IMG/VR virus record: IMGVR_UViG_3300025674_007600
Coordinates: 1-49,042 of that record
Source: a virus
Length of the DNA stretch: 49,042 bases
Reading direction: 5' to 3' (one strand)
Positions 14,174 through 35,309 of the stretch are shown piece after piece. The notes beneath the pieces were generated by a model. The model made no database searches, was not told the origin of the DNA, and saw nothing but the letters and a program-made list of their open reading frames with translations. The first letter of the stretch is position 1, and each line of letters starts with the position of its first letter. The position numbers and the translations under genes are program-made.

Positions 14174-15048
14174 CCCAATTCCTTTTTAAGTAAATAAAAA
14201 CACTCTGATATACCGTCAATTATATCATGCTTTGGTGACCAACCAAGATCTCTTAGGGTTGTTATATCTGCTTTCGTATGCATAACATCACCTTGTCTTG
14301 GTGTTATATAATCAAATATAACTTGTGGGAAGTATTTTGTCACTATCTTTTTTGCATCATTTAAAGAAATACTGTCTCCTGTTCCGACATCAAACCAAGT
14401 ACCAGAAAACTTACCACCATATTCCATGCAAAAGATGTTAGCCGAGACAATATCTAGTTTGTGTGCCATGTCTCTGCTCTGAGTTCCATCCCCTGTAATG
14501 AATGGATTTTTACCATCTCTAATAAACTGCATCCAATTTGCTATGGCTGTTGCGTAAGGTCCGTCAGCTTTTTGATCTGGGGAGTAGACGTTGAAGTACC
14601 TTAGACAAACTGTATCAACACCGTACAATCTAGACCACACGCCGCACATACTCTCTGGCATGTACTTAGAGGAGCCATACGGATTTTGCGGGCCATCTCC
14701 GTCACCCAATACAGACGAGGAGCTAGAATAAATTACTCTTTTGGTGTTGCATGCTCTGGCAAATTCCAGAACATACAATGAACTTAATACATTGTTTTCT
14801 ATAACATGTATCGGGTTCTCTACGCTGTAAGCAACTCTTGGAATAGCGGCCAAATGAAAGATGTAATCAGGCTTAAAATTAAACCAGTGTGGATGAAACT
14901 GGCCGTCTAGACCCGGCTTTAAACATTCTAAAATATCGTGACCATCTTGAAGATCAATTCCCATGACTTCATGGCCTAAACTTTTAAGCTGCTTATACAC
15001 CTCCGAGCCTATGTAGCCCTTGTGTCCAGTTACCAAACATCTAGCCAT
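14170..15048 (-). CDS. NAD-dependent sugar epimerase/dehydratase
   Basis: 292 residues of the extended short-chain dehydrogenase family. It shows VTGHKGYIGSEVYKQL (NAD-binding GxxGxxG), 'YIFHLAAIPRVAYSV', 'VIYSSSSSVLGDG' and the catalytic YxxxK as 'YGSSKYMPE'. 'GDGTQSRDM' and 'FDVGTGDSISLND' follow the UDP-glucose 4-epimerase/WbpP pattern. A long open frame runs upstream to 15288, but the ATG at 15048 starts exactly at the family's N-terminus (MARCLVTG) and has GGAG about 8 bases before it. It overlaps the preceding epimerase by 8 bases. It likely makes a UDP- or GDP-sugar for the island's transferases. Confidence 0.88.
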   Translation of the reverse strand: MARCLVTGHKGYIGSEVYKQLKSLGHEVMGIDLQDGHDILECLKPGLDGQFHPHWFNFKPDYIFHLAAIPRVAYSVENPIHVIENNVLSSLYVLEFARACNTKRVIYSSSSSVLGDGDGPQNPYGSSKYMPESMCGVWSRLYGVDTVCLRYFNVYSPDQKADGPYATAIANWMQFIRDGKNPFITGDGTQSRDMAHKLDIVSANIFCMEYGGKFSGTWFDVGTGDSISLNDAKKIVTKYFPQVIFDYITPRQGDVMHTKADITTLRDLGWSPKHDIIDGISECFYLLKKELG

Positions 15049-16048
15049 TACTTTTCTCCACTTGTTGAGAAATCCAATTATATGTTCTTTCCATGCCTTC
15101 GTATAGTGGTCTTGACACTTCCCAGCCAATTTTTTCACGATACAGGGTATTGTCTGAGTTTCTGCCGTTGACTCCGATTGGGCAGCGATGACCGTATTTA
15201 GCCTCAAACTCTTCACCGTCGATGTTGTAAACTTCCAGATCCTTGCCAGAAATTTGTATAGCCATTCTAGCAAAATCGTTAATAGCAATCATCTCTTCAG
15301 AACCAATGTTGACTGGTCCCGTAAAGTCAGACTGCATCAAGCGGTAAGTGGCTTCGACACACTCATCAACATACAGGAAGGATCTAGTCTGAGTACCCGG
15401 TCCCCACACCTCAATCTTACTGCCTTCTGGGGCTTGTGCTACTTTGCGACAGAAAGCAGCGGGAGCCTTTTCTCTACCACCTTCCCAAGTTCCATATGGT
15501 CCAAAGATATTGTGATACCTTGCTACTCGAACCTCAAGTCCCTTGTTTCTCATGAAAGCCAAGAATAGTCTTTCTGAAAATAACTTTTCCCAACCATACT
15601 CTGAATCTGGATTCGCTGGGTATGCTGAACCCTCAACACAGTTTGGGTTATCAGGATCTAGCTGGTTATGTTCTGGGTACATACAAGCAGAAGAAGAGTA
15701 GAATACTCTCTTAACCTTCTTCTTGGCTGCTTCATGGGCGACATTAAGGTTAATCATAGCAGAATTATGCATGATATCTGCATCATTTTCGCCGGTAAAA
15801 ACGAAACCTGCGCCACCCATATCAGCAGCAAGCTGATAAATCTCATCCATTTCTTCGTCGATTACAGCCGCTACAACATAAGGATCTCGCAGGTCTCCAA
15901 TAACAAAATGATCTGCCATTTCATCAACCTTGTGAAATTCGTTGTACTTAAGATCAACACCACGCACCCAGTATCCTTTCGACTTTAGATACCGAACAAG
16001 ATGACCACCGATGAAACCACCGGCTCCACACACTAATGCTTTCTTCAT
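15041..16048 (-). CDS. GDP-mannose 3,5-epimerase-like protein
   Basis: 335 residues starting MKKALVCGAGGFIGGHLVRY. It resembles GDP-mannose 3,5-epimerase strongly: 'IYQLAADMGGAGFV', 'SSACMYPEHNQL', 'SEYGWEKLFSERL' (catalytic YxxxK), 'EKAPAAFCRKVAQ' and 'TQTRSFLYVDECVEA' all match the plant/bacterial GME pattern. GME converts GDP-mannose to GDP-L-galactose (and GDP-L-gulose). The ATG at 16048 has GGAG 7 bases upstream; the longer start at 16069 would add seven unsupported residues. It overlaps the sulfotransferase stop. Its presence suggests L-galactose or a derivative in the glycan. Confidence 0.85.
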   Translation of the reverse strand: MKKALVCGAGGFIGGHLVRYLKSKGYWVRGVDLKYNEFHKVDEMADHFVIGDLRDPYVVAAVIDEEMDEIYQLAADMGGAGFVFTGENDADIMHNSAMINLNVAHEAAKKKVKRVFYSSSACMYPEHNQLDPDNPNCVEGSAYPANPDSEYGWEKLFSERLFLAFMRNKGLEVRVARYHNIFGPYGTWEGGREKAPAAFCRKVAQAPEGSKIEVWGPGTQTRSFLYVDECVEATYRLMQSDFTGPVNIGSEEMIAINDFARMAIQISGKDLEVYNIDGEEFEAKYGHRCPIGVNGRNSDNTLYREKIGWEVSRPLYEGMERTYNWISQQVEKSNG

Positions 16049-16671
16049 TTCACACTCCAAATTTTGCAATCTTCAGCATTGTTTATTTTCTCTATCAAAG
16101 AAGAGTAGCCAGAATTAAAAATATTTAATTGTTCGTCTGTCAAACTCTGCCTTAAATTTGTAGATTCTCTAATTTTACGCTCAGGAAGCCTAAAGCTAAA
16201 ATCTAGAAACTCGGAAATTTTATTCTCATTTTCCCACATAGTTTCATATCTTAAACACATAATATCACATGTTTGCGGTTTGTAAAATGAATCAAACATT
16301 TTTTCTAGTTTTAGAACGTCTTGGTTAAAAATATTTCTAAACTCTCCCCAATCAGCATCTAGATTCTTGAAGTGGGCAGGTCCCCAGTAGCCTTCAGTTT
16401 TGCTTTTCCTAACGACAGACAATATAATATCCAGAGGATTACCAAAAGTAAAAATAACTTTGCAGTTGTCAGGGTATTGAGTTGGATACAGGTGTGTTTT
16501 GTGAACTACACCGTTCTTAAATACACTAGGATATTCTCTTATAAATGGTCTTGTCTTTTTTAGGAATGGCTTTTCATGCTCCTGAAATCCCCACAAATGA
16601 TTGTGCAAAGCTACTGTCATTAACTGAGAGCCACATCGCCCGAGTGATGCTACAACATATGAATTGTTCAT
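16045..16671 (-). CDS. Sulfotransferase-like protein
   Basis: 208 residues. 'VVASLGRCGSQLMTVAL' near the N-terminus (residues 6-22) matches the PAPS 5'-phosphosulfate loop of sulfotransferases; 'VHKTHLYP' gives a downstream His/Lys motif, and 'CKVIFTFGNPLDIILSVVRK' corresponds to the 3'-phosphate region, although the usual Arg before N-P is replaced (FGNP). Such enzymes move sulfate from PAPS to a sugar or protein. ATG at 16671 overlaps the previous stop as ATGA; the longer frame starts at a TTG with no ribosome site. The substrate is probably a sugar of the island's glycan (inference). Confidence 0.7.
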   Translation of the reverse strand: MNNSYVVASLGRCGSQLMTVALHNHLWGFQEHEKPFLKKTRPFIREYPSVFKNGVVHKTHLYPTQYPDNCKVIFTFGNPLDIILSVVRKSKTEGYWGPAHFKNLDADWGEFRNIFNQDVLKLEKMFDSFYKPQTCDIMCLRYETMWENENKISEFLDFSFRLPERKIRESTNLRQSLTDEQLNIFNSGYSSLIEKINNAEDCKIWSVK

Positions 16672-17363
16672 TTTATCACGTATACCCAAGTTTCTGGCCA
16701 ATCAAAGCACACTTCATAATAACCATAGTTTTTTAACTGTGGCTTAACGGTAACATGCTGAAATTTCTCCGACCACTTATGCTTTTCAACATAATCGATC
16801 ACATCTTGGTGACTAATCTTTTGTGGATGAAAATCGCCATCTATTTCATCTTTTGTATCAAACATCAAAAACATACTTTTTGAAATTCTTAAGCACTCAT
16901 CAATAGATGCTTTCCAATCCCAACCATGATCAATAGAATTGTAACCAAAAAGAATGTCCAAAGAGTTGTCTTCTAGATGAATGTGTTCAGCGGGAGCATT
17001 GATGAAATGAGAATTAGAAGTCCAATCGACGTAATTCATATCTCTGAAGTCATTCATAAAAATATCAATGAAATATTTTTCTTTGCAATTCATTTTATAG
17101 CACTCTATGATACCTCCATAAGGTCCTACAGATATCTCTCCTATAATTTTGTCTTCAACATTGTCAAATTGTAGACCAGTAACATTTTTTATATCATTTA
17201 AGAAAAAATCATAGTTTGCCCTTTTAGTTTCAGGCTTTTCTTTTGGATCACTTTTGCCTACTTTTTTCCACCAATCAATATTCGTAGTTCTAATATTGTC
17301 CCAAGTCAAATGATTGTTGAGACCAAATTTTTGCTTTTCTAAATTATATGGTTTTTTTAGCAT
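16668..17363 (-). CDS. Putative SAM-dependent methyltransferase
   Basis: 231 residues. The middle looks like a class I methyltransferase: 'DKIIGEISVGPYGGIIECYK' (motif I region, about residues 70-90), 'EHIHLEDNSLDILFGYNSIDHGWDW' is the motif III-IV 'lPf.d.sfD.V...~~~H' pattern of the type-11 family, then 'SIDECLRISKSMFLMFDTKDE' as the strand after it. The motif I Gly-rich loop is degenerate (GPYGG). The gene overlaps its neighbours by 4-7 bases. It would methylate an acceptor sugar or small molecule; the substrate is unknown. Confidence 0.65.
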   Translation of the reverse strand: MLKKPYNLEKQKFGLNNHLTWDNIRTTNIDWWKKVGKSDPKEKPETKRANYDFFLNDIKNVTGLQFDNVEDKIIGEISVGPYGGIIECYKMNCKEKYFIDIFMNDFRDMNYVDWTSNSHFINAPAEHIHLEDNSLDILFGYNSIDHGWDWKASIDECLRISKSMFLMFDTKDEIDGDFHPQKISHQDVIDYVEKHKWSEKFQHVTVKPQLKNYGYYEVCFDWPETWVYVIK

Positions 17364-18157
17364 ATTTCAACCTCCGCTGTTGCTCCTCCTAGCCACCATG
17401 CTACTTCTGTATATGTGCTAAGATAGGTTCCTATAATTGTCTTATTTTTGGATAGCAAAAGCATCTCAATGAAGTCCTCTTTAATTCCTTCGCCATGAAA
17501 ACGACTTGTTGCTATATCTGTCTCTCTGTCATAAATCAGAACTCTGTTTCCATATCTTGTCTTAAATAAATTTTTGACATAATCAGAGTCTGACGTAAGG
17601 TATATATTACCACCTGTGGTATTATTTAAATTTGATTTAACACTCGCAAAGAATGACTCTAATCTGTGAAAACTATCTTTTCTTTCGATATCATCTGACC
17701 AAGAACGTATATGCACCGATATGGTCTCGTCATTAAAATTACTTGAGAATCTTTCAACCTTTTCTAGAATCTCTGGATTTATGATTAGGTCATTAAACTT
17801 ACTAACACATTCAGACCTTACGACTTCAGGTATTCTTAAGAACTCCAAATCAATGTTTCGTAGTCTAGGGCAGGTAAAACTGAATCTATTACCAGCCATG
17901 TCCCTATCTGCTGTAACCTTAGTGAAACCATTTGGTATTGGGTCTGTATCTAAAACAGCAAGCCTCCATGAAGGATAGGTATTAGCTCCTGATGGGACTG
18001 ATCCTACCTCCACATCATTCAAAAATAGATCAGAAAATTCACAAGTCAAATCTTTATTTTTGGTCCAATGAACACAATAATCACTGTCAAGTCTCATAGC
18101 AGAAATAATCGACTTCATTCGATTACCCAAGCCTGACTTATTGTTAGCTACCATCAT
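17357..18157 (-). CDS. Fucosyltransferase-like glycosyltransferase
   Basis: 266 residues. 'NNKSGLGNRMKSIISAMRL' (5-23) is the N-terminal loop shared by NodZ/O-FucT-like GT-B transferases, and 'ISVHIRSWSDD' (146-156, His149 and Arg151) matches their HxRxGD motif I, in which Arg contacts the GDP-sugar. 'GNIYLTSDSDYVKNLF' is the motif II strand, and a Ser/Thr-rich 'TIIGTYLSTYTEVAWW' ends the catalytic domain. GDP-fucose or a related GDP-sugar is the likely donor, which fits the GDP-mannose 3,5-epimerase nearby. ATG at 18157, with an alternative ATG at 18154. Confidence 0.65.
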   Translation of the reverse strand: MMVANNKSGLGNRMKSIISAMRLDSDYCVHWTKNKDLTCEFSDLFLNDVEVGSVPSGANTYPSWRLAVLDTDPIPNGFTKVTADRDMAGNRFSFTCPRLRNIDLEFLRIPEVVRSECVSKFNDLIINPEILEKVERFSSNFNDETISVHIRSWSDDIERKDSFHRLESFFASVKSNLNNTTGGNIYLTSDSDYVKNLFKTRYGNRVLIYDRETDIATSRFHGEGIKEDFIEMLLLSKNKTIIGTYLSTYTEVAWWLGGATAEVEIC

Positions 18158-19557
18158 TTTAATGTTTCCTTTATTTCAGACCAGTTGTTGTTATATCTAA
18201 TGAAGGGGACGTTGAAATAAATCAACTTCTTAACATTGTCTTTCTTTACTTCAATATTATCAGTATGATGCCCTCTTGTTAAATCATCTATGAACAAGTG
18301 AGTTTTATGGTCTGATTTTAGTATATCTAATTTTTGCTCAAAGTTATCAACAATTATTATTTGGTCATAATGAAAATTATTTTTAATAAGCCAGTCTCTA
18401 GTGGAAAGATAGGCATTATTAAATTTACCTCTAGCTGTTATAAACACAATTCTATATTTTTCTTTTGCATCATTGAGGATTTCTCTTGCTTGCTCATTGG
18501 CAGGGTCGAGCATAATCTCATCGTAATCTCCATATCTTGGATCTATGGAGCCATTTGAGTTTGTCCATTTCCTTACTCGGGGAACATGATCATTGATAGT
18601 ATAATCAATATCACAATAAATTACTGGCTTTTCACTTTGTGTCTTTAAAAATTGAATTACTTTTTTATAAAAGTCTAGCTGGATTTGTCTTTCTTTTACT
18701 TTGAACTCAGCAGTTCCCTTGAAAGATTTATATGCAGAGCCAACAGGACCCGGAACATTCATACTAAAGATTGGGGAAACTTCAAAAAAATGTGGCTCTG
18801 CTGTCAAATCATCATTTTCCCAAGCAACGTCACACGCCCCTATATTTATGTTGGTAAGTTTTCTAAACTTCTTTATGTGTTTTGACATCTCTTTTAAATC
18901 AATATCAAAATCACAGATAGAGCCAAAACGAGTAGAGCCAGAAAGTGATTCTTTATCTTTCTTAATTCTAAAATACCCATGCACTACCTCATCACCAACA
19001 AAGGTTAATCTTGCCTCTTTTGTAAACATTAATTTTTGTTGCACTATACACTCTGAAGATACATTGAAGATTTTTTTAACCTTGGTTCTGTATTCTTCTA
19101 TATTTTTAGCCTGCTCCATGAAGTTGCTAGCGCATGAATAAGGGTGTTTTAGAACCACTGGGAATGACACTTCAGTATTTAATGCATCCTCAATGTTATC
19201 AAAAAACCAAGTTTGTGGCTGGTTTACACCACAATTCTTAAACAAGAAAAATATGTTTTTTTTGTTTTCATATAGTCTGTAGAGGTAAGAACTAGGGAAT
19301 AGTGAACTTCTCTTGTTTTCAAAGTGCAGTGCTATATTTTCTAGTTTTTTGGACAATTTCTCAGAATTCTTGTCACCAGCATCATGGTTAAGTCTTGTCA
19401 AATAAAATAAAGCTTCGTCATCTACAAGAGATGGGTTATCAATAAAATCTAATTCTAAGCCCAAAACACCAATTGCTTCCTTCATCCTGTTTGTCCAATC
19501 ACAATTTTGCCAACCGCTTGGATGAAAACGATTCTTTAAAACTCCAATCTTACTCAT
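18154..19557 (-). CDS. ATP-grasp/HAD phosphatase fusion protein
   Basis: 467 residues with two enzyme domains. Residues 90-290 look like ATP-grasp: 'FPVVLKHPYSCASNF' with Lys137, 'CIVQQKLMF', and 'PHFFEVSPIFSMN' with Glu259 and Asn267 as Mg-binding residues. Residues 310-460 match the HAD superfamily: 'YCDIDYTIND' (DxDxT, Asp316 and Asp318), 'IVFITARGKF' (Thr374) and 'HLFIDDLTRGH' (paired Asp424-425). ATP-grasp enzymes form amide-type bonds through acyl-phosphates; HADs are mostly phosphatases. The combination is unusual to me. It may modify an amino acid or sugar for the glycan, as it sits next to an aminotransferase, but no substrate can be named. Confidence 0.75.
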   Translation of the reverse strand: MSKIGVLKNRFHPSGWQNCDWTNRMKEAIGVLGLELDFIDNPSLVDDEALFYLTRLNHDAGDKNSEKLSKKLENIALHFENKRSSLFPSSYLYRLYENKKNIFFLFKNCGVNQPQTWFFDNIEDALNTEVSFPVVLKHPYSCASNFMEQAKNIEEYRTKVKKIFNVSSECIVQQKLMFTKEARLTFVGDEVVHGYFRIKKDKESLSGSTRFGSICDFDIDLKEMSKHIKKFRKLTNINIGACDVAWENDDLTAEPHFFEVSPIFSMNVPGPVGSAYKSFKGTAEFKVKERQIQLDFYKKVIQFLKTQSEKPVIYCDIDYTINDHVPRVRKWTNSNGSIDPRYGDYDEIMLDPANEQAREILNDAKEKYRIVFITARGKFNNAYLSTRDWLIKNNFHYDQIIIVDNFEQKLDILKSDHKTHLFIDDLTRGHHTDNIEVKKDNVKKLIYFNVPFIRYNNNWSEIKETLK

Positions 19558-20722
19558 CTACATCTCCAAAATATTTTGATATTTCTCTAACAATAACATC
19601 ATTTTGTTCACGATCTCTTGAGGCAATTCTAACAAAGTTCCCCTCCAAACCTTTCTTGTCGTCACAAGAGCGGAAGTATATTCCACTATCAATAAGCAAG
19701 TCTTTTACAAAAGTTTGTGACTTTATTTGTTCTGGTAACTCTACAAGGACAAAGTTTGCCTTGCTGGGGTATACTTTTATTTTCTCTATTGCCTTGAGTT
19801 GTTCTATAAATTCATTAGTGTATTTTATGTATTTCACTCTAACTTTTTCATATTCTAACATGAATTTCTCTTCAGAATACAAATTAAAAAAGAATTCTGT
19901 TAATCCATTTACATTCCATAGATATCCATTTTTAAGCAAAGTTTCTACCTTTTGCTTATCCATCACACAATATCCTGCACGTATTCCTGCTATGCCAAAA
20001 TCTTTAGACATACTTTTTACGATTATAACGTTATCATACTTTTTGACTAGTTGCTCACTAGAACTAAAATTATAAGTAGAATCTTCGTATGTAAAATGAA
20101 TGAAGCTTTCATCAATGATTAAGTTTGGAATGTCCCTTAACTCATTGCAGATGTAGGCAATGTCACTATTTTTAATATAACCTCCGTCCGGGTTATTTGG
20201 ATTTATAATTACCGCAGTATCAACACCCGACTCTTTTGCTTCACGACAAAAAGATTCAACATCCAAGCAAAAATTGTCCTCTTTCTTTAGCTGATGAAAT
20301 ATCACTTCTGTGTCTTCTCTAACAAACTCATAGTATGGTGAAAAAGTAGGTATATTAATAATTACTTTTCTCTCTACAAAATTGTGAAAAATCGCTTGTA
20401 TAATTTCTGTAGCGCCATTGCCTATGAATATGTTGTCTTCTGGAACATCAATTGTTTTAGAAAGATTCTTTGAAATTATATTATTTTGAGACGGATAAAA
20501 CTCCAGCACTTCTCTTATAAGACCAGTATCAATAACATCAGTCTTAAACCTATCCATAAACAAATCAGTGGCGTATGGATTTGAAAGAAAGCACGCATCT
20601 ATTTTTATGTCAATTTCTGGCAGTTCTTTTTTGATTGTCAAAAGACTTGGGGAATGTGTTCCAGAATCATCAAAAAGTTTTTGAAATTTTTTTGATATTA
20701 ATTCTTTTTCACTTTTTGACAT
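19550..20722 (-). CDS. PLP-dependent aminotransferase, class I/II (HisC-like)
   Basis: 390 residues. Fold-type I signatures: 'NIFIGNGATEIIQ' (cofactor phosphate cup), 'TAVIINPNNPDGGY' (NPxNPxG), 'NLIIDESFIHFT' (Asp that pairs with the pyridine N), and 'IVKSMSKDFGIAGIRAGY' with the internal aldimine Lys after SMS and the conserved Arg. This is closest to histidinol-phosphate/threonine-phosphate aminotransferases or decarboxylases. In a glycan island such an enzyme usually makes an amino compound to be attached to the glycan. It lies just upstream of the ATP-grasp/HAD fusion, with an 8-base overlap, so the two may act in sequence. Confidence 0.85.
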   Translation of the reverse strand: MSKSEKELISKKFQKLFDDSGTHSPSLLTIKKELPEIDIKIDACFLSNPYATDLFMDRFKTDVIDTGLIREVLEFYPSQNNIISKNLSKTIDVPEDNIFIGNGATEIIQAIFHNFVERKVIINIPTFSPYYEFVREDTEVIFHQLKKEDNFCLDVESFCREAKESGVDTAVIINPNNPDGGYIKNSDIAYICNELRDIPNLIIDESFIHFTYEDSTYNFSSSEQLVKKYDNVIIVKSMSKDFGIAGIRAGYCVMDKQKVETLLKNGYLWNVNGLTEFFFNLYSEEKFMLEYEKVRVKYIKYTNEFIEQLKAIEKIKVYPSKANFVLVELPEQIKSQTFVKDLLIDSGIYFRSCDDKKGLEGNFVRIASRDREQNDVIVREISKYFGDVDE

Positions 20723-21473
20723 ATTTGTTAACCTTCTCTATAACATGTTGAGAATTTCTAAACCTGTTTATCCTGCCAGAGAAGTCAGTCTTCTTTCCGG
20801 TTCCCTTAAAATGAACCAGTTTTGTATTTTCAAGTGAGAGCAAGCTTTCCTCTTCACAAGCCACGTCTGCGGTGTATACGTCTCCTAAATTAAATTCTCC
20901 ATGCTCGCCTTGCCTAATTTCATTAAGTAATAAATTTAAAGAATGAGATTCAAACCAACCACGATGAGGCTGCTCTATCATTAATTTCTTCATTCTGCTA
21001 ATCCAAGAACTCAGGAATCTTATACCTTCATCAGGATTATTTACGACGAAGAAAGAAGCAATCCAGTTATCATCTTCCTTATAGCTTCTATTGCAAACCA
21101 AAATATCTTTGTCTTGTTCTAAAACTTCGGTTACATCACCTAAAAACATACAATCTGAATCAACCATAATCAAAGGGCTGTTATGGAGCTTCAACGCTAC
21201 TTTACAAAATTTAGTTTTCCTGAGAACATGCTGTAGCCAATTTGAATTTCGTGGAAGAGCATCGGAGGTATCTGCAAGATTTAAATCACTTTGTAAAATA
21301 CTGACTTTTTCAAAAGTCTTAAAGTAAGAAATTTCTTCATCTTTTAAACCAGTATCTAATATTATTATATTATCGATTTTGTCATCAGGAATTTCTTCTA
21401 GTAATGAGAGAAGCCAGATTTTTCCAAAGATCATGTAGGCAGAGTTAAGGACTGTAAAGAAATTATACTTCAT
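20709..21473 (-). CDS. GT-A type glycosyltransferase
   Basis: 254 residues. A DxD motif, 'PLIMVDSDCMFLGD' (Asp105 and Asp107), coordinates the metal-nucleotide-sugar in GT-A enzymes; the preceding 'SALKLHNSP'-like strand and later 'NWIASFFVVNNPDEG' and 'VHFKGTGKK' agree with a GT8- or GT32-like fold. It is therefore a nucleotide-diphospho-sugar transferase acting on the cytoplasmic side. No membrane segments are visible. Overlaps the aminotransferase start by 14 bases. Donor and acceptor cannot be assigned. Confidence 0.75.
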   Translation of the reverse strand: MKYNFFTVLNSAYMIFGKIWLLSLLEEIPDDKIDNIIILDTGLKDEEISYFKTFEKVSILQSDLNLADTSDALPRNSNWLQHVLRKTKFCKVALKLHNSPLIMVDSDCMFLGDVTEVLEQDKDILVCNRSYKEDDNWIASFFVVNNPDEGIRFLSSWISRMKKLMIEQPHRGWFESHSLNLLLNEIRQGEHGEFNLGDVYTADVACEEESLLSLENTKLVHFKGTGKKTDFSGRINRFRNSQHVIEKVNKYVKK

Positions 21474-22384
21474 GATATTATTCCATATTTTTTAAAGTAA
21501 AGGGCGTCAGCACCACCCCAAGGAAACCAACCATCAAAATTGGTTTCACCAAGGTTTCTTCTATGGCTTGGAGGCTTAGCAATCTTCCAAGGATTAAAAA
21601 TTGCTACTTGCGATGCTCCACTTAAAGTAGCTGCCCACCAAGAAAATGTACTGTTATGCACAATAACTTTATCAAAACTTCTCAAAAGATTGAAATCATC
21701 AATGAAGCTGCCCCGCAGCCCACCAGTACCTCCCATCATTTCAGCCCCGTTACAGTGAATAATCGGGTCTAGAGGTGTCAATTCCTCAACAAGATGATTC
21801 ATGTATTCTAAAGACTGCTCAGTAGAAACCCATGGGGCTGTTCGATTGGGTCCTACTCTGATTTGATCTTGTATCTTTTTAATATCAGAAATAGTATATG
21901 GTTCCCACTTTTCAGCATCAGTGACAATATGAAGTCTTTCAAAACTCATCTTGTTTAAAACTTCTTTTATAGAATCTGCTGTAATATGGTTTTTATGATG
22001 AGATTCTTGTATTAGTCTGTTTTGCAGACGGAGATGTAAGATAACATCCTTTTTGTTTGTTATCTCAGATGGTGTATACCAAGTTCGTATTTCATCGAGA
22101 TAAGGCTTGATAAGTTTATAGTCCTCAAAGTATCCATTAATAACAAAATTTTGTTCTAAATTAATGTTAGAACTTAAGCATTGTTTATAGTTTGAATCAT
22201 TGATATGAAATACTGGAAGTTGTCTATTTGCAAAAGCTGTTTGCTCGGGAATACCAAGCTCAGGTATTGCTCTATGTAAAAGCTTGAGACCATTTTTTTC
22301 AGCAAATAGTCTACCACATGCATATTGAAATAGGTTGTTTCCAAAACCGATTGTAAAATTTATTTGTACTATGCCTTTATTCAT
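21470..22384 (-). CDS. GT11 family fucosyltransferase-like
   Basis: 304 residues. The GT11 alpha-1,2-fucosyltransferase layout is clear: N-terminal 'IGFGNNLFQYACGR' (12-25; family GGLGNQLFQYA), a central 'ILHLRLQNR' (115-123), and 'IVHNSTFSWWAATLSG' (241-256; family NSTFSWWAAxL) followed by 'PWKIAKPP' and 'GWFPWG'. Oddly, the central motif, normally HxRRGDY, is HLRLQNR: the second Arg, Gly and Asp are lost. The donor may therefore differ from GDP-fucose (for instance GDP-L-galactose) or the enzyme may be impaired. Overlaps both neighbours. Confidence 0.82.
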   Translation of the reverse strand: MNKGIVQINFTIGFGNNLFQYACGRLFAEKNGLKLLHRAIPELGIPEQTAFANRQLPVFHINDSNYKQCLSSNINLEQNFVINGYFEDYKLIKPYLDEIRTWYTPSEITNKKDVILHLRLQNRLIQESHHKNHITADSIKEVLNKMSFERLHIVTDAEKWEPYTISDIKKIQDQIRVGPNRTAPWVSTEQSLEYMNHLVEELTPLDPIIHCNGAEMMGGTGGLRGSFIDDFNLLRSFDKVIVHNSTFSWWAATLSGASQVAIFNPWKIAKPPSHRRNLGETNFDGWFPWGGADALYFKKYGIIS

Positions 22385-22970
22385 TTTTATTTTCTACCCC
22401 TATAAGATGTATTATCATCCGATCATTGTGAATGTAGCTATCAGCTTTCATCTTAAACTTACTCAATATTTTCTGTATGTTTGTGACAGTCACATTGCTC
22501 CAGTCTTCGTTTTCCTTGTAAGAGCCAAACTGCCCAGCATCATCAATAATAATGATATCATTAAAAAACCCATTTAAAAATCTTTGTTTTAAAATAATGT
22601 CTAATTCTATTAAAACAGGAGGATCATAGAGAGGATCTCGTGCTGTAATTCCATGTGAGTAATGGGCATCTAGAAAGAAAATAACTGGTTTATCAGAAAA
22701 ATTTGTAAAAATCTGCGGTAGAGCTTTTACTGAAGAACCATGAAGTATACTGATATTTTCATTGTTCTTGAATTTATCTGACGCCCTGTGAAAAAGATTA
22801 TTATCTAATTCTATTGAATAACAGTGTTCAAAAACACTTCCCATCTTTTCTATTGTTTGTCCAAAAAAGGTACCAGTTTCTACAAAAGTGTCAAAATTTA
22901 TTTGTTTTTCAATAATTTTATTATTTTTATCTATAATTTCTTTGATTTGACTTTCATCTAGTTTTGCCAT
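22377..22970 (-). CDS. Class I methyltransferase-like protein
   Basis: 197 residues. 'FDTFVETGTFFGQTIEKMG' resembles the glycine-containing motif I, 'CYSIELDN' is the acidic end of beta-2, 'SSVKALPQI' follows, and 'VIFFLDAHYSHG' plus 'IIIIDDAGQFG' look like motifs IV and VI of TylF/CmcI-like O-methyltransferases with a metal-binding DAH/DD arrangement. The ATG at 22970 lies 4 bases after the dehydrogenase stop; the longer open frame starts inside that gene. It may O-methylate a sugar hydroxyl. Substrate unknown. Confidence 0.65.
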   Translation of the reverse strand: MAKLDESQIKEIIDKNNKIIEKQINFDTFVETGTFFGQTIEKMGSVFEHCYSIELDNNLFHRASDKFKNNENISILHGSSVKALPQIFTNFSDKPVIFFLDAHYSHGITARDPLYDPPVLIELDIILKQRFLNGFFNDIIIIDDAGQFGSYKENEDWSNVTVTNIQKILSKFKMKADSYIHNDRMIIHLIGVENKNE

Positions 22971-22974
22971 AATC

Positions 22975-24075
22975 CTATATTCTCCCAACGTAGAAGAAGA
23001 TATCTCCATATGACTCTTTGAGAATTTTTATAACCTCGTCAGATTCCTGTATCGTAACCTTAATTCCATTTTTCGCCAATGCATGAGCAAACCTTAGCTG
23101 CTGTGATTCTTCTAAGATTACTGTTCCCTTTTTGTAAGTCACTGAATCTGTAAAGTATTCACGCTGCCCAGAACTTAAAAATTGTTCTACCTGAAAATCT
23201 AAATGTTTATCATTAATATCTGTAGAAGCTTCACACATATCGTATGGCATGTCATTGATTTTGGCAAGACGCATATAAGCTCTTGTATCTCTAGGGAAGC
23301 ACGGTCCACCCCATCCAAAACCATATCTAAAAAACTTATTGTTTATTCTACTATCTGAGCCAACTGCCCGTAAAACTTTGTCAGGATTAGCCCCTATCTT
23401 TGTAGCCAGATCACCAACCATATTGGCGAAAGAGATCTTACAAGTCAAGTAACAGTTAAGAGATACCTTGGTTAATTCAGCACTTAATCTATCCATAACA
23501 TGGATAGAGGGATTGTTAGTACAAGCATTTTTGTAAACAGATACAATTTCTTGTGCAAGAGCATCAGTATCACTGCCTATGTAAATACAATCAGGCTCTG
23601 ATTGATTTTTTAAGATTGTCCCTTGGGCTATTGTTTCTGGATTGAAACTAACATTCCAATTGTACTCCTTTAATCTATCATACACAGTATCTGAATAGCC
23701 GGGATTAACATTCGTGCAAACCACCAAATGCTTAGTGTTCTTTTGTTTACCAAGTTTTACTAGAGATTCTACAACAGAATCAACTTGAGAAACATCGTAT
23801 TGACCATCTGGCTCTGAAAAGGATGCAACGGTAACAAAAATAATATCTGAGTGTGATACACAGTCAGAAGCATCTGACGTAGCTCTGAAGTTCTCTGAAC
23901 TTGATAGGAGTTCATTTACTCCGGGTTCATGAGAAAAAAATGTTTTTTGGTTAATGTTATTTACATAATTCTCAATGATATCATAACCAACAACATTGTA
24001 GCCAGCCTTTTCTAGTGTTAAGCAAAAACAAAGACCAAGGCGACCAATACCAATTACACTTATATTATTTTTCAT
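22975..24075 (-). CDS. Nucleotide-sugar dehydrogenase, second copy in the island
   Basis: 366 residues (ATG at 24075; the frame one codon longer begins at TTG). 'ISVIGIGRLGLCFCLTLEKA' is the NAD-binding loop, 'AELTKVSLNCYLTCKISFAN' the middle-domain helix with catalytic Lys, and 'GFGWGGPCFPRD' the catalytic Cys motif (Cys259). The C-terminal substrate domain is shortened: family members usually exceed 420 residues. It shares only the family motifs with the gene at 13343-14173, so the two probably act on different sugars or came in separately. It most likely produces a uronic acid sugar nucleotide. Confidence 0.82.
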   Translation of the reverse strand: MKNNISVIGIGRLGLCFCLTLEKAGYNVVGYDIIENYVNNINQKTFFSHEPGVNELLSSSENFRATSDASDCVSHSDIIFVTVASFSEPDGQYDVSQVDSVVESLVKLGKQKNTKHLVVCTNVNPGYSDTVYDRLKEYNWNVSFNPETIAQGTILKNQSEPDCIYIGSDTDALAQEIVSVYKNACTNNPSIHVMDRLSAELTKVSLNCYLTCKISFANMVGDLATKIGANPDKVLRAVGSDSRINNKFFRYGFGWGGPCFPRDTRAYMRLAKINDMPYDMCEASTDINDKHLDFQVEQFLSSGQREYFTDSVTYKKGTVILEESQQLRFAHALAKNGIKVTIQESDEVIKILKESYGDIFFYVGRI

Positions 24076-24689
24076 CAATAATTTCTCATTTTATCTCTAA
24101 TGATTGATACTATATCATCATTTTTCTGTGGTAGGTATTCAGTAAATCTATACAGATTTATATCATTTTCTTTTAATAGTGTGTAGTAGGTATCAACCTT
24201 ATCCTCAAGTTCTGATACCTTCTCTACATCGTGACCTTGTCCACAATATACATCAATATGTTTATGCACCCCAGACTCCACAAGATCATTGAATAAATAC
24301 CATTCTGAGCCCTCGATATTAACTTTTAAAATATTGAAAGCAATCTTGTGTGCTTTTACGTTTTCTTTAATCCATTCTGAAAACACAATGCCCTCGACCT
24401 CTTCATAGTTCTTGGATACGTTTCGTTTTGTTGAAAAAACAGAGTGCCCAACATGGTTTGGGGCATGATATAGCCTGACAGTCCGTGGAGTATCAACTAC
24501 GGCTTTGTTAATAATTTCAACACGGTCATTGTCCTTATATCTATCTTTTAAAACGTCAGCATAGCCTTTACAGGCTTCAAAACCATATACTTTATAGTCT
24601 GTAATATTGAGAGCAGGGAAGACATGATTGACCATCCAGTGTATCTCTGTTCCCTTCCATAATCCAAAATCGTAGTAGTAAACTTTCAT
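24075..24689 (-). CDS. FkbM-type methyltransferase
   Basis: 204 residues, ATG 24689. 'YYYDFGLWKGTEIHWM' stands where FkbM proteins have their SAM loop, 'KVYGFEACKGYADVLK' is the strand with the acidic ribose ligand, 'EIINKAVVDTPRTVRLY' follows, and 'FNILKVNIEGSEWYLFNDLV' matches the FkbM signature LLKIDVEGaE (here N replaces the usual D). FkbM proteins O-methylate sugars or polyketides. Together with two other methyltransferase-like genes, it points to a heavily methylated glycan. The stop overlaps the dehydrogenase start (TGATG). Confidence 0.78.
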   Translation of the reverse strand: MKVYYYDFGLWKGTEIHWMVNHVFPALNITDYKVYGFEACKGYADVLKDRYKDNDRVEIINKAVVDTPRTVRLYHAPNHVGHSVFSTKRNVSKNYEEVEGIVFSEWIKENVKAHKIAFNILKVNIEGSEWYLFNDLVESGVHKHIDVYCGQGHDVEKVSELEDKVDTYYTLLKENDINLYRFTEYLPQKNDDIVSIIRDKMRNY

Positions 24690-25589
24690 TTAATCTTCCT
24701 TTAAAAAATTTAAGTATTTTTTGGCAACGCTAGCCATTGATATTTTTGAATCAAAAGAGTTGCCAGTTATGTTGTTAAACTCAAGGGCTGGAGGCTCGGG
24801 GCTCTCCAAAAAACTATAATCCCAATCTGGTTCGTTAACAATTGTTGCGCCTAAGCCTGCTATTTCTCGTGTTCCCCCTGCAGATGAGCAAATGATATTA
24901 CACCCGCAGGCGCGAGCGTCAATAACAACATTTGGACAGTGGTCTAGATAAGCCAAATGAATAAAGTATTTTGAAATTTTATATACCGACATGAGTTCAG
25001 ATATTGATAGGTCACCAACGTAAAATATTCTTGGGTGCTCAATCACATAGTCAGGATTATTTCCACATACTATCAGACAATCATTATCACCCGCAAAATT
25101 CAAGAAATACTTTACATTTTCTTTCAGTCTCTTGAAAGAGTGCCAACTAGCGGCACAACTCCAGATATTGTCAAAAGAAATATATTTATTTTTTATTTCC
25201 TCTGACACCTCAAAATCAGATATCGATAGTACATCGGCTCCATTGTTTATGACTGCATAATTTGAGTGTGGACCAAACCATTTAAATATCAATTCTTTGT
25301 TGAAATTTGTTTGAAAGACTACACCCTTAGCACTATGATAGCTAGCTTTTATATTATAATTCATCCTCTCACAATCAAAACCAGAATTGAAGTATATGCC
25401 ATCTAATCTAAGATACATATCTAAATCTTTTCTTTGACCACTTGACTGAATAAAAGTCAGCTTCTTGTCGTAAGGAATCAACTTATTGAATTGAACTCCA
25501 CGAAGACTAAGGTATTTTACCAACTTTTGCCCAAAGTGGTTTGGTCCAGAAGTCGATTTAAGATTGACGTTTTCTAGCAGAATATTCAT
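24690..25589 (-). CDS. GT-B glycosyltransferase (GT1/GT4-like)
   Basis: 299 residues, shorter than usual GT4 enzymes (350-400). The C-terminal half has the GT4 pattern: 'FDNIWSCAASWHSFKRLKEN' (strand and Lys/Arg before the donor site), 'IFYVGDLSISELMSVYKISK', 'LAYLDHCPNVVIDARACGC' in place of the E-x7-E donor motif, and 'SSAGGTREIAG'. The first acidic residue of the donor motif is Asp (VIDARACG) rather than Glu. It probably transfers a sugar from a nucleotide donor in the island's pathway. ATG 25589, adjacent to the GT2 gene. Confidence 0.75.
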   Translation of the reverse strand: MNILLENVNLKSTSGPNHFGQKLVKYLSLRGVQFNKLIPYDKKLTFIQSSGQRKDLDMYLRLDGIYFNSGFDCERMNYNIKASYHSAKGVVFQTNFNKELIFKWFGPHSNYAVINNGADVLSISDFEVSEEIKNKYISFDNIWSCAASWHSFKRLKENVKYFLNFAGDNDCLIVCGNNPDYVIEHPRIFYVGDLSISELMSVYKISKYFIHLAYLDHCPNVVIDARACGCNIICSSAGGTREIAGLGATIVNEPDWDYSFLESPEPPALEFNNITGNSFDSKISMASVAKKYLNFLKED

Positions 25590-26320
25590 AGTTTTTCTAA
25601 TCTATCGTATGGTTTTATCTGTCTTATAAGCCTTTCTGTTAAAAGCTGAACACCTCTATTGACCCTATCGTCTGATAGAGGGTTTGTTCTATTATAGCAG
25701 TACAACACCTCATTTATCGAACGATGGTGTTCTGGTCCTGCCATTTCAGCCATTGGCCACATTATAGCTTGGTCACTTGTTGTAGTCCAGTATAAACCAG
25801 ACGGATTCATTAAATGTTTTTTTCGTATTCTATCATACAATTTCTTTTTAAAAGTTCCGAGATGGGAAAATTCCCAACTTTTTTGTCTTATATTCCCAGA
25901 CCAATAACTATCGTTCAATCTTGGACTAACTACAGAGCCGTGTGGCTCAATAACGTAAGAACCATTTGTCATCCAAACATCTGGATCTTGATAGATTTCA
26001 TTCAAAAATCCAAATACCTCTTTATCATAAAACCAATCATCACCATCTAGAATTACTGTAATTGTGTCTTCAGGTAAAGACTCGTTTACAATCTCTAGGT
26101 TCTCCATTTTGCCTTTGTTAAAAGAGTTAAAAAATGTTACTATCTTATCGCTCTTGAAAGAAGAAACAATATCCACAGTCTTGTCTGTAGAGCAATCATC
26201 GACATAGTAAATTGTATAATTGTCGTATGATTGCTCTAAGACAGAACCTAAGTTTTTCTCAACCCATTCTTCGCAATTATATGAAGGAATGACAACAGAA
26301 AAATGATTATCTAACTTCAT
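25586..26320 (-). CDS. GT2 family glycosyltransferase
   Basis: 244 residues. 'FSVVIPSYNCEEWVEKNLGS' (7-26) is the GT2 start, 'YYVDDCSTDKT' (38-48) contains the first catalytic Asp, and 'ITVILDGDDWFYDK' (87-100, Asp92/94/95) is the DxD-type metal motif. 'GTFKKKLYDRI' and 'TSDQAIMWPMAEMAG' give the acceptor-side loop with a catalytic 'SDQ'. No membrane helix, so a soluble transferase. Overlaps by 4 and 14 bases with its neighbours. It is among the most certain calls in the island, though the sugar is unknown. Confidence 0.9.
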   Translation of the reverse strand: MKLDNHFSVVIPSYNCEEWVEKNLGSVLEQSYDNYTIYYVDDCSTDKTVDIVSSFKSDKIVTFFNSFNKGKMENLEIVNESLPEDTITVILDGDDWFYDKEVFGFLNEIYQDPDVWMTNGSYVIEPHGSVVSPRLNDSYWSGNIRQKSWEFSHLGTFKKKLYDRIRKKHLMNPSGLYWTTTSDQAIMWPMAEMAGPEHHRSINEVLYCYNRTNPLSDDRVNRGVQLLTERLIRQIKPYDRLEKL

Positions 26321-28394
26321 CCCAGAATACTTCCTTTCGATTCAACAGGTAGCTCTTGATATCTTCTAAATTATCTGTATTAAACCAGTCTTCGTCTGCA
26401 TGCTGAACATAATCGTTTAACTCTAGCTCACAACCGAGAAGTTTGGCCTCAATGACAAACCTTGGACAAGTATCATAACCAGTTGGCAAGAAACAGACAC
26501 CCTTAGCAGTTGACATCTTTTCCAGTACCTGACGTGGTTCGAGTCCTGAAATCACTTCATAATCTAGATTGTTATCTTTGCACCACTTTTCAGATTGATT
26601 ACTTCCCTTAATCCAAGATCTTGAACCAAGCACGAGCCATGTTTCTGTTCTGTCTTCTGTTTTTCTGGAAAGGCTTTCTATATTCTCAAAGAACTCCTCG
26701 TCGAATGTCGAAGATAAGACACAAAGTCGCGACTCTTCAATACTAGGCAAATCGCTTAGATAAATATTCTTTTGTCTGCTTGACATAAAGAATGTCTTTT
26801 TAGAACTGTTGATAAACTCTGTGATGGCCAATCCACGGTCAGTATCCGCATATGAGCACTCCTCGTCTTCTAGGAACTGATACAATACGGGGTTTCTGTA
26901 TTCACAATACTTATAGTCGTATTCTACAAAATAGTAATCTTGTATTGTTTTTGAGACTGTAGATAGAATATTACTATCTAACTGAGCGATGTTGCCAAAG
27001 ATCCACTTTTTGTCGTGGTATGCCCTGACCATTTGCTCGGTTACGTTAGCCGAGTTAATTTTAAGGTATTCTACATTTTCTTTCTCAGGAATAGAATCAA
27101 TCAAAGCTTGCAAACTTAGCTCGGCTCCACCAGTGTACTGGCCCAAGAACATGTCTGAGACAAAAATGTAATCGTAATTTTTCTTCTCGTGTATATGCTT
27201 GGCTAGCTGTTCATGCTTCTTATCCCAAGCAAATTCTTCGCAAACCCAAGCCTGAAGCTCTTCAGCCTTTGCCCGCCACTTGTCGTAGTTCTTTCGGACT
27301 TGACGCATGCGAAGCTTGAAAGAACCCTCGGTTGGGTAGCACCAAGACATCCCCTTCTCAATGACACCCTGCCATAGAGCAGCGTCAGGGACAGGCCCAA
27401 GAGTGAAGTCAACCTCGGCAAACATCGCCTTATTCTTGCCCTTCTTCTTCTTTGATTTGGACTCCCATGGCATGTAAAGGAAATCGCACTGACCAGACCA
27501 GCCAGGAGCAATAATAGGAAGACCGCTGTAGGCGGCTTCAAATAGGGGTAGACCGAAGCCTTCACCGTGGGTGAGTGAAACCATTGCCTTGACCTTGGGA
27601 TGCTTGTAGAGTGCATGCATTTCGCTCTCAGACATATCCCCGTGTAGAAGGTAGACCTTGCACTTGCGGCCTGAGATGTCAGGGATAGAGTTTTCGATTT
27701 GCTGGAGGGCAAACTCGCGGTCGACAACAGAGTTGTTCTTTAGGCTCATCTTTACGATAAGGCCGACTTCCTCGTCGTGGTTTTCTTCCACGAACCAGCG
27801 AATAAGGTTTTGAATGTTCTTTCGCGGACCCCATTGAGCGACTGCGAGGTAGTTGAAGTCGTGCTCAAGGCTTAGGTCTAGTTCAGGTAGTCCGTCAAAA
27901 GTCTTTACTGGATAGTGAGCGATCTCCACAGGTGTCTGGTTGGCAAGATGAATCTGCTGCCCAGTTTGTGGATGCTGGCCTGAATAGACTGCATCAAAGC
28001 TAGACTTAGAATGCTCGGAGATCGTAATAATCTTATCCATCAGGTTAGCCTGCTGGATCCACACCGGAGCGACCTTATTTGTTTCGATGCCCGCTGTGAC
28101 GCCAATATTAACTGCCGCTAACTTCTGCCACTCGTTAGGGATGGTGACCTGGACGGAAATGTCGTAAGGAAGCTTCTGATGAAGATGGACTGTTGCCTTG
28201 TTTACCTGCTGGTCGATCCATGCTCGCTCCTCGCCTGGAATGGCGAGCCAGCCAGTCTCTCCCCACTTTGTGGGAAGGATGTGAATGTCAAACTCGTCCT
28301 CTCGCATCCTTAGGGCGCGAAGGACAAAGCGGGTGTGTTCGCCATAGCCCGACTGCGTGAGGGCTGGACCTCTTACTAAAACTGTCTTTTTCAC
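26307..28394 (-). CDS. Double-domain GT-B glycosyltransferase
   Basis: 695 residues, two glycosyltransferase modules. Residues 1-410 form a full GT4-like enzyme (SQ.GYGEHTRFVLRALRMRE near the start, 'HGEGFGLPLFEAAYSGLPII' as E-x7-E donor motif). Residues 420-690 form a second, shorter GT-B half-like module ending in 'CFLPTGYDTCPRFVIEAKLLGC'. Base composition changes sharply near 27.2 kb, at the domain boundary: the first domain is GC-richer, like the flanking phage genes, the second AT-richer, like the island. The start is GTG at 28394, overlapping the upstream TGA in ATGTGA, with AGGAGG 4 bases before it. It looks like a fusion of a resident gene with an imported one. Confidence 0.82.
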   Translation of the reverse strand: MKKTVLVRGPALTQSGYGEHTRFVLRALRMREDEFDIHILPTKWGETGWLAIPGEERAWIDQQVNKATVHLHQKLPYDISVQVTIPNEWQKLAAVNIGVTAGIETNKVAPVWIQQANLMDKIITISEHSKSSFDAVYSGQHPQTGQQIHLANQTPVEIAHYPVKTFDGLPELDLSLEHDFNYLAVAQWGPRKNIQNLIRWFVEENHDEEVGLIVKMSLKNNSVVDREFALQQIENSIPDISGRKCKVYLLHGDMSESEMHALYKHPKVKAMVSLTHGEGFGLPLFEAAYSGLPIIAPGWSGQCDFLYMPWESKSKKKKGKNKAMFAEVDFTLGPVPDAALWQGVIEKGMSWCYPTEGSFKLRMRQVRKNYDKWRAKAEELQAWVCEEFAWDKKHEQLAKHIHEKKNYDYIFVSDMFLGQYTGGAELSLQALIDSIPEKENVEYLKINSANVTEQMVRAYHDKKWIFGNIAQLDSNILSTVSKTIQDYYFVEYDYKYCEYRNPVLYQFLEDEECSYADTDRGLAITEFINSSKKTFFMSSRQKNIYLSDLPSIEESRLCVLSSTFDEEFFENIESLSRKTEDRTETWLVLGSRSWIKGSNQSEKWCKDNNLDYEVISGLEPRQVLEKMSTAKGVCFLPTGYDTCPRFVIEAKLLGCELELNDYVQHADEDWFNTDNLEDIKSYLLNRKEVFWDEVR

Positions 28395-33944: not shown

Positions 33945-34271
33945 TTAATCTGTCTGCTCTAATTCGTCAAGTGTTTTTTGACATTCTTCTGGAAGATAGG
34001 ATTTTGGCTCTGCTTTATAGATTTCGATATCAGGCTGTTCCCACTCTATTTCTGGACAGTTTTCTTCTTTTAGAATCTTATCTTTCATATAAAATTCTAA
34101 GCCTGACATTGTTGACCTTAGATCTTTGACATTATTGTAAGTTATCTCTATCTCTTCGTGACATTCTTCAATGACATTAGTGATTTCTCCCTGTGGGTCA
34201 TCTTGGATGAGAAAAACTTTATTTTTTGGCTCCTCGGCTAAGATGAAGAGCAGGCTCCATGTTTCTATCAT
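33945..34271 (-). CDS. Hypothetical acidic protein
   Basis: 108 residues, starting MIETWSLLFILAEEPKNKVF, and acidic overall, with Cys residues spread at about 37, 72 and 99 and a helical middle (VKDLRSTMSGLEFYMKDKIL). The first 12 residues are hydrophobic enough to be a weak membrane segment or a signal-like sequence, though they lack a basic start. No family recognised. The start overlaps the stop of the membrane coiled-coil gene by 4 bases, so the two are probably translated together. Confidence 0.6.
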   Translation of the reverse strand: MIETWSLLFILAEEPKNKVFLIQDDPQGEITNVIEECHEEIEITYNNVKDLRSTMSGLEFYMKDKILKEENCPEIEWEQPDIEIYKAEPKSYLPEECQKTLDELEQTD

Positions 34272-34537
34272 TGTGTTACAAACCTCTCAATTCTTTCGAG
34301 AGTTGTCTTCATGTACTCGATGTCTTTCTCCATAGAGATGATGGCCTTGGTATTGCCATCTGCTTCTTTGATTTTTGCTTCTAAACTCTCGATGGTGTCT
34401 TCGGCATCACCAAGATCGTTTGTTATTTCGTGGACTAGAATGTTTGTGTTCCAAACCCACCCGGCGAGTGGAACTACCACAACGCCAAGGACAAGTGTAA
34501 AAACTTTCCATATTTTGTCCATAACATCTTTAGACAT
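34268..34537 (-). CDS. Membrane protein with coiled coil
   Basis: 89 residues, an N-terminal membrane helix (about 8-28: KVFTLVLGVVVVPLAGWVW) then a charged coiled coil (DLGDAEDTIESLEAKIKEAD and 'MEKDIEYMKTTLERIERF'). The layout of one span plus coiled coil resembles XhlA-type or i-spanin-like small lysis proteins, but no specific match is claimed. ATG 34537 has GGGGAGGG about 8 bases upstream. It is the first gene after the tmRNA and has the ACTATTTATAA motif before it, so it could begin a transcript. Confidence 0.7.
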   Translation of the reverse strand: MSKDVMDKIWKVFTLVLGVVVVPLAGWVWNTNILVHEITNDLGDAEDTIESLEAKIKEADGNTKAIISMEKDIEYMKTTLERIERFVTQ

Positions 34538-34574: not shown

Positions 34575-34598
34575 TTTGCGTTAGAGAAAAGACAGAAA

Positions 34599-34955
34599 TG
34601 GAGGTGGCGGGAATCGAACCCGCGTCCAGAATAAAATTCAATTCAAGTCATCCACAGGCTTGGCTTGTGCTGTCTTCACTCACAAGCAAGTATAGGCGTT
34701 AACACATCAACCAGCTCTCAGCGCCGAAAAGCTCCACCTACTACAAGTAGGGTAACCATTTTGATTTTTACAACTTGTCTGTTGTGTTGACCAGATTGGA
34801 TAGAAGGCCCTGGTCAGCCTCCTTGATTAAGCCGCTAGGCGGACGGAATCAAAGTGTGCGTTGTTGTTGGCAACTAATTTGTTTTTGATTTTTTGAGTCA
34901 TCACGACTGCCTGCACTATTCTCTTCATTTACCCTGTCGAATCCAGTGCACCCCC
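34599..34955 (-). ncRNA. ssrA: tmRNA (ssrA), one-piece, with a 14-residue tag
   Basis: The 5' end GGGGGTGCACTGGATTCGAC and the 3' end ...GGACGCGGGTTCGATTCCCG...CACCTCCA are diagnostic tmRNA ends. The acceptor stem pairs GGGGGTG with CACCTCC (one G-U); the T-arm is GCGGG-TTCGATT-CCCGC; part of helix P2 pairs AGAATA (34922-34917) with TATTCT (34633-34628). CCA is not encoded. The tag starts after TTAGTT at GCC (34871) and reads ANNNAHFDSVRLAA, then TAA (34829-34827). LAA is the usual ClpXP-recognised end. tmRNA with SmpB frees stalled ribosomes and tags their products for breakdown. No smpB gene is seen here, so host SmpB would be needed. The RNA is unpermuted, unlike alphaproteobacterial tmRNA. 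Confidence 0.95.
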
Positions 34956-35309
34956 TTAATCTTCAAAGTAAGAAACTGGATCATATTTCTTTTTCTGTAT
35001 ATGGAATTCGTTATGTTTCAGTCCTAGAAAATGCATTGTCTCTACTTGCGTCCTAGTAGCAGAGTAAGCATACTTAAATATAGCGTCTCTTACTATCTCT
35101 GTCAAGTTAAACCATATAGGAATTCCGTAAAGACGGCTATTGACTGGCTTTGTGGAGAGTTCTAATTTTAGACCTATGACTTCTTCTAGGCTCAGAGAAG
35201 AGAGCATTGTCTCAAATTCATCATTTGATCTTTTCTCTTGACGTAGCTTCTTACTTAGACTATAGTAGGTATTGCGTCCTTTCCTTTGTTTCTTTCTCTT
35301 CCAAGACAT
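34956..35309 (-). CDS. Small basic protein with HTH-like C-terminus
   Basis: 117 residues, very basic at the N-terminus (MSWKRKKQRKGRNTYYSLSK). Near the C-terminus 'SATRTQVETMHFLGLKHNEF' plus 'HIQKKKY' has the spacing of a Fis-type helix-turn-helix, though not strong. 'LEEVIGLKLELSTKPVNSRLYG' suggests a helical core. It probably binds nucleic acid. The stop TAA ends at 34956, immediately before the tmRNA 5' end at 34955, so the mRNA must be cut exactly at that boundary for tmRNA maturation. I do not recognise the family. Confidence 0.7.
   Translation of the reverse strand: MSWKRKKQRKGRNTYYSLSKKLRQEKRSNDEFETMLSSLSLEEVIGLKLELSTKPVNSRLYGIPIWFNLTEIVRDAIFKYAYSATRTQVETMHFLGLKHNEFHIQKKKYDPVSYFED

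Follow-up and report, generated by a model that had tools for sequence, protein, structure and literature searches.

Does the 357-nt element at positions 34,599 to 34,955 of an uncultured viral record encode a tmRNA of the phage's own, with its own degradation tag, and what would a phage gain from it? tmRNA releases stalled ribosomes and marks the unfinished proteins on them for degradation. The stretch of DNA analysed here, referred to as the window, is a linear IMG/VR virus record of 49,042 bases. The original prediction, which gave no strand, placed a complete one-piece tmRNA at this locus and regarded tmRNA as known in few phages, for example some mycobacteriophages. The latter view is outdated, as in 2021 tmRNA was counted in 402 of 18,146 phage genomes, or 2.3% (PMC9004378). 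It is known in mycobacteriophages and Bacillus phage G (PMC4131195), while huge phages carry tmRNA together with SmpB (PMC7162821). Since phage tmRNA is already documented, the gene described here adds to a known kind, and its unusual features belong to the lineage that carries it: a fixed slot, a fast turnover of the tag, a flush or overlapping upstream gene and, in some relatives, a nested gene.

A complete one-piece tmRNA gene

ARAGORN returned exactly the predicted coordinates, on the minus strand, and the RF00023 covariance model matched positions 34596-34955 of the same strand over its full length (model 1-374), with 113.3 bits against a gathering threshold of 47 (E 1.3e-43). The ARAGORN/Infernal check proposed along with the prediction therefore recovered both fold and tag. 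The parts of the gene are as follows.

34599..34955, minus strand: one-piece tmRNA (ssrA) gene, 357 nt (ARAGORN and RF00023)
34949..34955, minus strand: 5' strand of the acceptor stem, GGGGGUG, including G3 of G3-U70; compensatory changes at pairs 4-6
34886..34908, minus strand: pseudoknot PK1, AGUC/GACU and UGAU/AUCA; in the window, 2 of 100 shuffles are equally good
34827..34871, minus strand: tag reading frame ANNNAHFDSVRLAA with its stop codon, resume codon GCC (Ala); ARAGORN, coding part nt 85-129 of the gene
34607..34623, minus strand: T-arm; all pairs intact across the 27 relatives, two of them with compensatory changes
34600..34606, minus strand: 3' strand of the acceptor stem, CACCUCC, with the discriminator A at 34599

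Specifically, the acceptor stem, the T-arm, the P2 pairing and the LAA-ending tag are all as had been predicted, and PK1 was found as well. The gene thus combines a full-length RF00023 score, the G3-U70 pair, a tag ORF with a resume codon and a ClpX-type hydrophobic/AA end, PK1 and the long-range P2 helix. A two-piece (permuted) arrangement was rejected, the parts lying in ordinary order according to both programs. CCA is absent from the gene, whose 3' end reads CCUCCA|UUU. The tmRNA is the sole Rfam match in the window and its sole tRNA-type gene, no tRNA genes being found there by ARAGORN.

The bacterial one-piece tmRNA (RF00023) has the same acceptor stem with G3-U70, T-arm, P2, PK1, alanine resume codon and LAA-ending tag. 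By comparison, the tmRNA of the window is phage-encoded, has a tag prefix that was not found among the tmRNAs of 84,980 species genomes, does not encode CCA, and is abutted at G1 by the stop codon of the upstream gene. Among phages, Melnitz and the pelagimyophages (PMC9004378) offer a parallel, being marine T4-like phages in which a complete tmRNA shares an operon with a neighbouring transcription-related gene; however, the Melnitz tmRNA is two-piece (permuted) and accompanied by a glutamine riboswitch, whereas that of the window is one-piece. Mycobacteriophages Bxz1 and Wildcat and Bacillus phage G likewise have a complete ssrA (PMC4131195) but are, as far as known, unrelated to the phage studied here.

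Covariation of the tmRNA helices

An alignment of 27 phage tmRNAs was analysed over the acceptor stem, the T-stem and two P2 segments. In these helices 94.7% of the cells are standard pairs and 13 of the 26 pairs are altered on both sides, a level of covariation matched by none of 500 shuffles; when the partners were slid by 1-3 columns, pairing fell to 47-56%. All 27 tmRNAs have the G3-U70 pair that alanine charging would require, and the gaps that separate relatives in the tag segment are multiples of three. Of 30 phage tmRNAs located by ARAGORN, 28 have PK1 at one and the same place, as do five more, with differing stem sequences. The single-sequence fold energy is unremarkable (z -1.06) and gave no useful signal, as expected of a pseudoknotted RNA. 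In conclusion, the family model and the strong covariation across 27 phage tmRNAs indicate that this RNA is under selection as a tmRNA.

A T4-like phage lineage with one tmRNA slot

The window represents part of the genome of a T4-like myovirus, which has relatives among the IMG/VR phages. Its genes include a gp25 baseplate protein (PF04965), a PhoH and a ParB-like protein, and many sugar-nucleotide and glycosyl enzymes. Sharing its tag, the sister contig L134 (the same contig as L085) encodes a T4-like terminase, whose closest counterparts are those of Flavobacterium phage immuto (49.6%) and of Microcystis phage Mel-JY01 (44.7%); neither of these two phages has a tmRNA above the cut-off. PhoH relatives were found in IMG/VR at 80 loci, on contigs of up to 191 kb. 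No earlier description of this phage lineage was found. As separate observations, positions 13343-28394 hold a block of UDP-sugar dehydrogenases, epimerases, an aminotransferase, a sulfotransferase-like gene and glycosyltransferases, an amount unusual for a phage, and positions 1576-9162 a 2528-aa ORF with no PHROG match. The genes around the tmRNA are listed below.

34956..35309, minus strand: conserved 117-aa Fis-like helix-turn-helix (HTH) protein, whose stop codon abuts tmRNA G1 (gap 0)
34268..34537, minus strand: 89-aa gene downstream in the same operon, of no family, 92% identical beside the tmRNA in L013
31840..33195, minus strand: PhoH-like protein, a syntenic anchor 1.4 kb downstream of the tmRNA (phrog_2765, E 2e-107)

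The order HTH gene, then tmRNA or tRNAs, then PhoH is conserved. A tmRNA above the Rfam cut-off was found in 29 of 49 records tested. Of 98 distinct HTH-gene loci, 64 have one located by ARAGORN on the strand of the HTH gene and at most 2 kb downstream of it, with none antisense; four more (L023, L043, L083, L090) were found by the covariance model only, which brings the count to at least 68 of 98. Many of the HTH-gene loci without a tmRNA hold tRNAs in that slot. Distances between tmRNAs track those between PhoH proteins (Mantel rho 0.44, 0/999), a correlation that fits mostly vertical descent. On the PhoH tree the presence of the tmRNA switches several times, at most 9, a figure that is an upper bound because some rows scored as tmRNA-less are truncated contigs. 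The close relatives L025-L027 have no tmRNA, so the gene is dispensable. Moreover, its parts vary independently: in L013 the tag and the ends are 100% identical and the middle 64%, while in L032 the middle is 94% identical and the tag 62%.

Such patchy presence, the tRNAs filling the same slot and the independent variation of middle and tag segments are compatible with a functionless passenger, either a recently captured host gene or a scar of integration into host ssrA. However, this reading is largely refuted by the covariation, with compensatory changes across 27 divergent copies; in addition, the same slot is used at 64 of 98 loci and the gene is complete rather than a 3' att fragment, so that we consider a passenger highly improbable.

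In more distant contigs (L012, L015, L016 and L018) we also observed tmRNAs with tag ANNNAHFDVAQAA and an encoded CCA, none of which occupies the HTH-PhoH slot; next to the tmRNA of L012, L015 and L016 is a cytidylyltransferase-like gene, of which the window also has one.

Fast-changing tags and the search for a host counterpart

The lineage carries 37 distinct tags, every one ending in AA, a count that leaves out ARAGORN misreads at loci with a nested ORF. To look for the tag elsewhere, the full degenerate pattern for ANNNAHFD was run over 84,980 prokaryote species genomes and over viral contigs. In the species genomes it gave 10 matches, none within a tmRNA, while in the viral contigs all seven matches fell within a tmRNA. 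A wider tag pattern gave 7 matches, none in a tmRNA, in 399 genomes of one bacterial phylum, that of a Methylomonas MAG. Matches on genome contigs (Citrobacter and others) were rejected as host tmRNAs, there being no tmRNA at those places. When the tmRNA was run by blastn against phages, the sole match covered 51 nt of the T-arm region in one Alcaligenes phage, present as two records; plasmids gave no match. The tag is therefore not that of a sequenced species representative, and the host may be unsequenced. The claim that the tmRNA is phage-encoded with its own tag holds: the flanking phage genes are syntenic in relatives, and the prefix was found in no tmRNA of the species representatives scanned.

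All together, these data describe a large, poorly described lineage in which one spot for the tmRNA is kept while the tag changes quickly. With a broad group of T4-like phages that has a one-piece tmRNA at a fixed place and a fast-changing degradation tag, both sequence comparison and bench work can address what phages have a tmRNA for, be it the supply of ribosomes, a private tag or the control of phage genes.

Partners and proposed function

The search for smpB suggested with the original prediction gave no match in the 49-kb window, itself a fragment, or in 32 distinct related records of up to 205 kb. The tmRNA presumably relies on host SmpB. In this the lineage differs from the huge phages (PMC7162821), which share a phage tmRNA but have SmpB. 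The search for a ClpP-like protease (PF00574) covered 50 relatives and gave matches in 15, with no match to the family in the window; as many related records are fragments, the absences of SmpB and ClpP are weak evidence. In six relatives (G006, G452, G454, G456, G471 and G480) the ClpP-like gene lies 0.5-4 kb downstream of the tmRNA, and such genes occur too in records where the tmRNA is distant or absent. Four of them, on the tmRNA strand and about 0.5-2.5 kb downstream, are:

G006:C1:5667-6062, ClpP-like gene
G454:C1:137058-137564, ClpP-like gene
G452:C1:198067-198468, ClpP-like gene
G456:C1:168934-169437, ClpP-like gene

We judge it probable that the gene is a functional phage tmRNA for ribosome rescue with a tag of its own, and likely that the RNA acts in rescue. 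The data show the gene, its structure, its covariation, its conservation across the clade with a quickly changing tag, and no SmpB match; processing, charging, rescue, proteolytic outcome and benefit are inferred. Points against this reading are the tmRNA-less close relatives L025-L027, the window without a ClpP match, and the ClpP-like genes in records whose tmRNA is distant or absent. The tmRNA would be transcribed together with, or from within, the upstream HTH gene, its 5' end cut by host RNase P and its CCA added by a host enzyme. Host AlaRS could then charge it through G3-U70, and host SmpB and EF-Tu would deliver it to ribosomes stalled on broken mRNA. The addition of ANNNAHFDSVRLAA to the products would direct them, through the LAA end, to ClpXP-type proteolysis, by means of a tag that keeps the ClpX end and differs from sequenced bacterial tags. 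The likely benefit is that ribosomes and amino acids would stay available to the phage during the degradation of host mRNA.

A different role would be that of a decoy, the phage RNA binding SmpB or ribosomes and dampening host trans-translation, as is reported for the molecule of mycobacteriophage DS6A, which consists of the tRNA-like domain only. RNA of the DS6A type inhibits the endogenous tmRNA (PMC4131195, PMC11915505), and the finding of no SmpB in the window and 32 records agrees with such a role; but a decoy would need none of the tag frame, AA end, resume region and PK1, all of which are retained, and we regard it as improbable.

The junction with the upstream HTH gene

The HTH protein matched the HTH_8 profile in 7 of 42 members (best E 4.8e-5) and FIS with E 0.006; its AF2 model has a pLDDT of 90, and a fold search gave weak Fis matches only. 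A gp33-type coactivator identity was set aside, the profile being that of a Fis-like HTH. Inside this gene lies one candidate control element.

35077..35105, minus strand: candidate sigma70 promoter TTGACA-N17-TATATT, about 120 nt before the tmRNA (consensus match only, 11/12)

The element is also present in L013, L021, L137 and L138, and with one change in L023. T4-type late promoters, TATAAATA, are not above chance near the tmRNA (3 found against 1.76 expected in the window).

Both the HTH gene of the window and that of L013 end with a stop codon immediately before tmRNA G1. In seven relatives (L023, L036, L038, L042, L057, L071 and L195) no stop codon comes ahead of the tmRNA, and the HTH ORF extends into it by 27-39 nt. 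G1 lies at a codon boundary in each of the nine contact cases, although these represent about 3-4 lineages, and the codon phase alone is thus weak evidence. The 5' end of known tmRNAs is made by RNase P; if the same holds here, the upstream message would be non-stop in the overlap cases and would end exactly at the stop codon in the window. This arrangement raises the hypothesis of a coupled control, in which RNase P maturation would cut the HTH mRNA at its coding end in the window and within that end in the relatives, leaving a non-stop message whose product would be tagged by the same tmRNA, with less HTH protein as the outcome. The flush stops, the seven overlaps and the phase of G1 are in agreement with it. 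Nevertheless, at most tmRNA-bearing loci the HTH stop lies upstream, with a gap of 10 nt to more than 1 kb; the contact cases come from few lineages, the RNase P cleavage is an assumption and the window retains its stop codon. We therefore hold coupled control to be unlikely, and ribosome rescue by a tmRNA with its own tag stays the preferred reading.

The flush or in-frame overlapping upstream ORF looks new. The nearest likeness is the smpB-ssrA overlap of Carsonella (PMC4131195), where the 3' end of a protein-coding gene also runs into ssrA; here, in contrast, the upstream gene encodes an HTH protein of the phage and overlaps in frame with tmRNA G1.

A gene nested inside the tmRNA of relatives

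At least five relatives have a tmRNA gene of 468-479 nt. Between its tag/pseudoknot part and its 3' half sits an ORF of 63-69 codons that has a Shine-Dalgarno sequence of its own. These tmRNA loci are:

L084:1500-1970, tmRNA with nested ORF
L090:6567-7034, tmRNA with nested ORF
L212:1621-2099, tmRNA with nested ORF
L213:4626-5093, tmRNA with nested ORF
L224:6046-6524, tmRNA with nested ORF

The ORF had no match in PHROG and INPHARED, and a literature search for a gene nested in tmRNA returned nothing relevant. The ARAGORN tags VDTKLGKDCYSKLNEL (L084/L212) and ADTKLDKDCYSKLNEL (L213) were rejected as misreads of it. The nested gene looks new; if confirmed, the nested and overlapping protein genes would be an arrangement for which we know no parallel in phages. 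A reading of both arrangements that we hold to be unlikely is that this lineage fuses its tmRNA with protein genes: the 5' end, flush with the end of the HTH gene or in frame inside it, would yield a self-tagged non-stop message, and the subclade that nests a whole gene with its own ribosome-binding site would make a single RNA serving as tmRNA and mRNA alike, or a split tmRNA of a new kind.

Without the nested ORF, the tmRNA gene resembles the 243-nt tmRNAs of L078, L082 and L092. In most comparisons the nested ORFs differ mainly at third codon positions, that of L224 having about 50% protein identity, and a free-standing relative of the nested ORF is present in L037.
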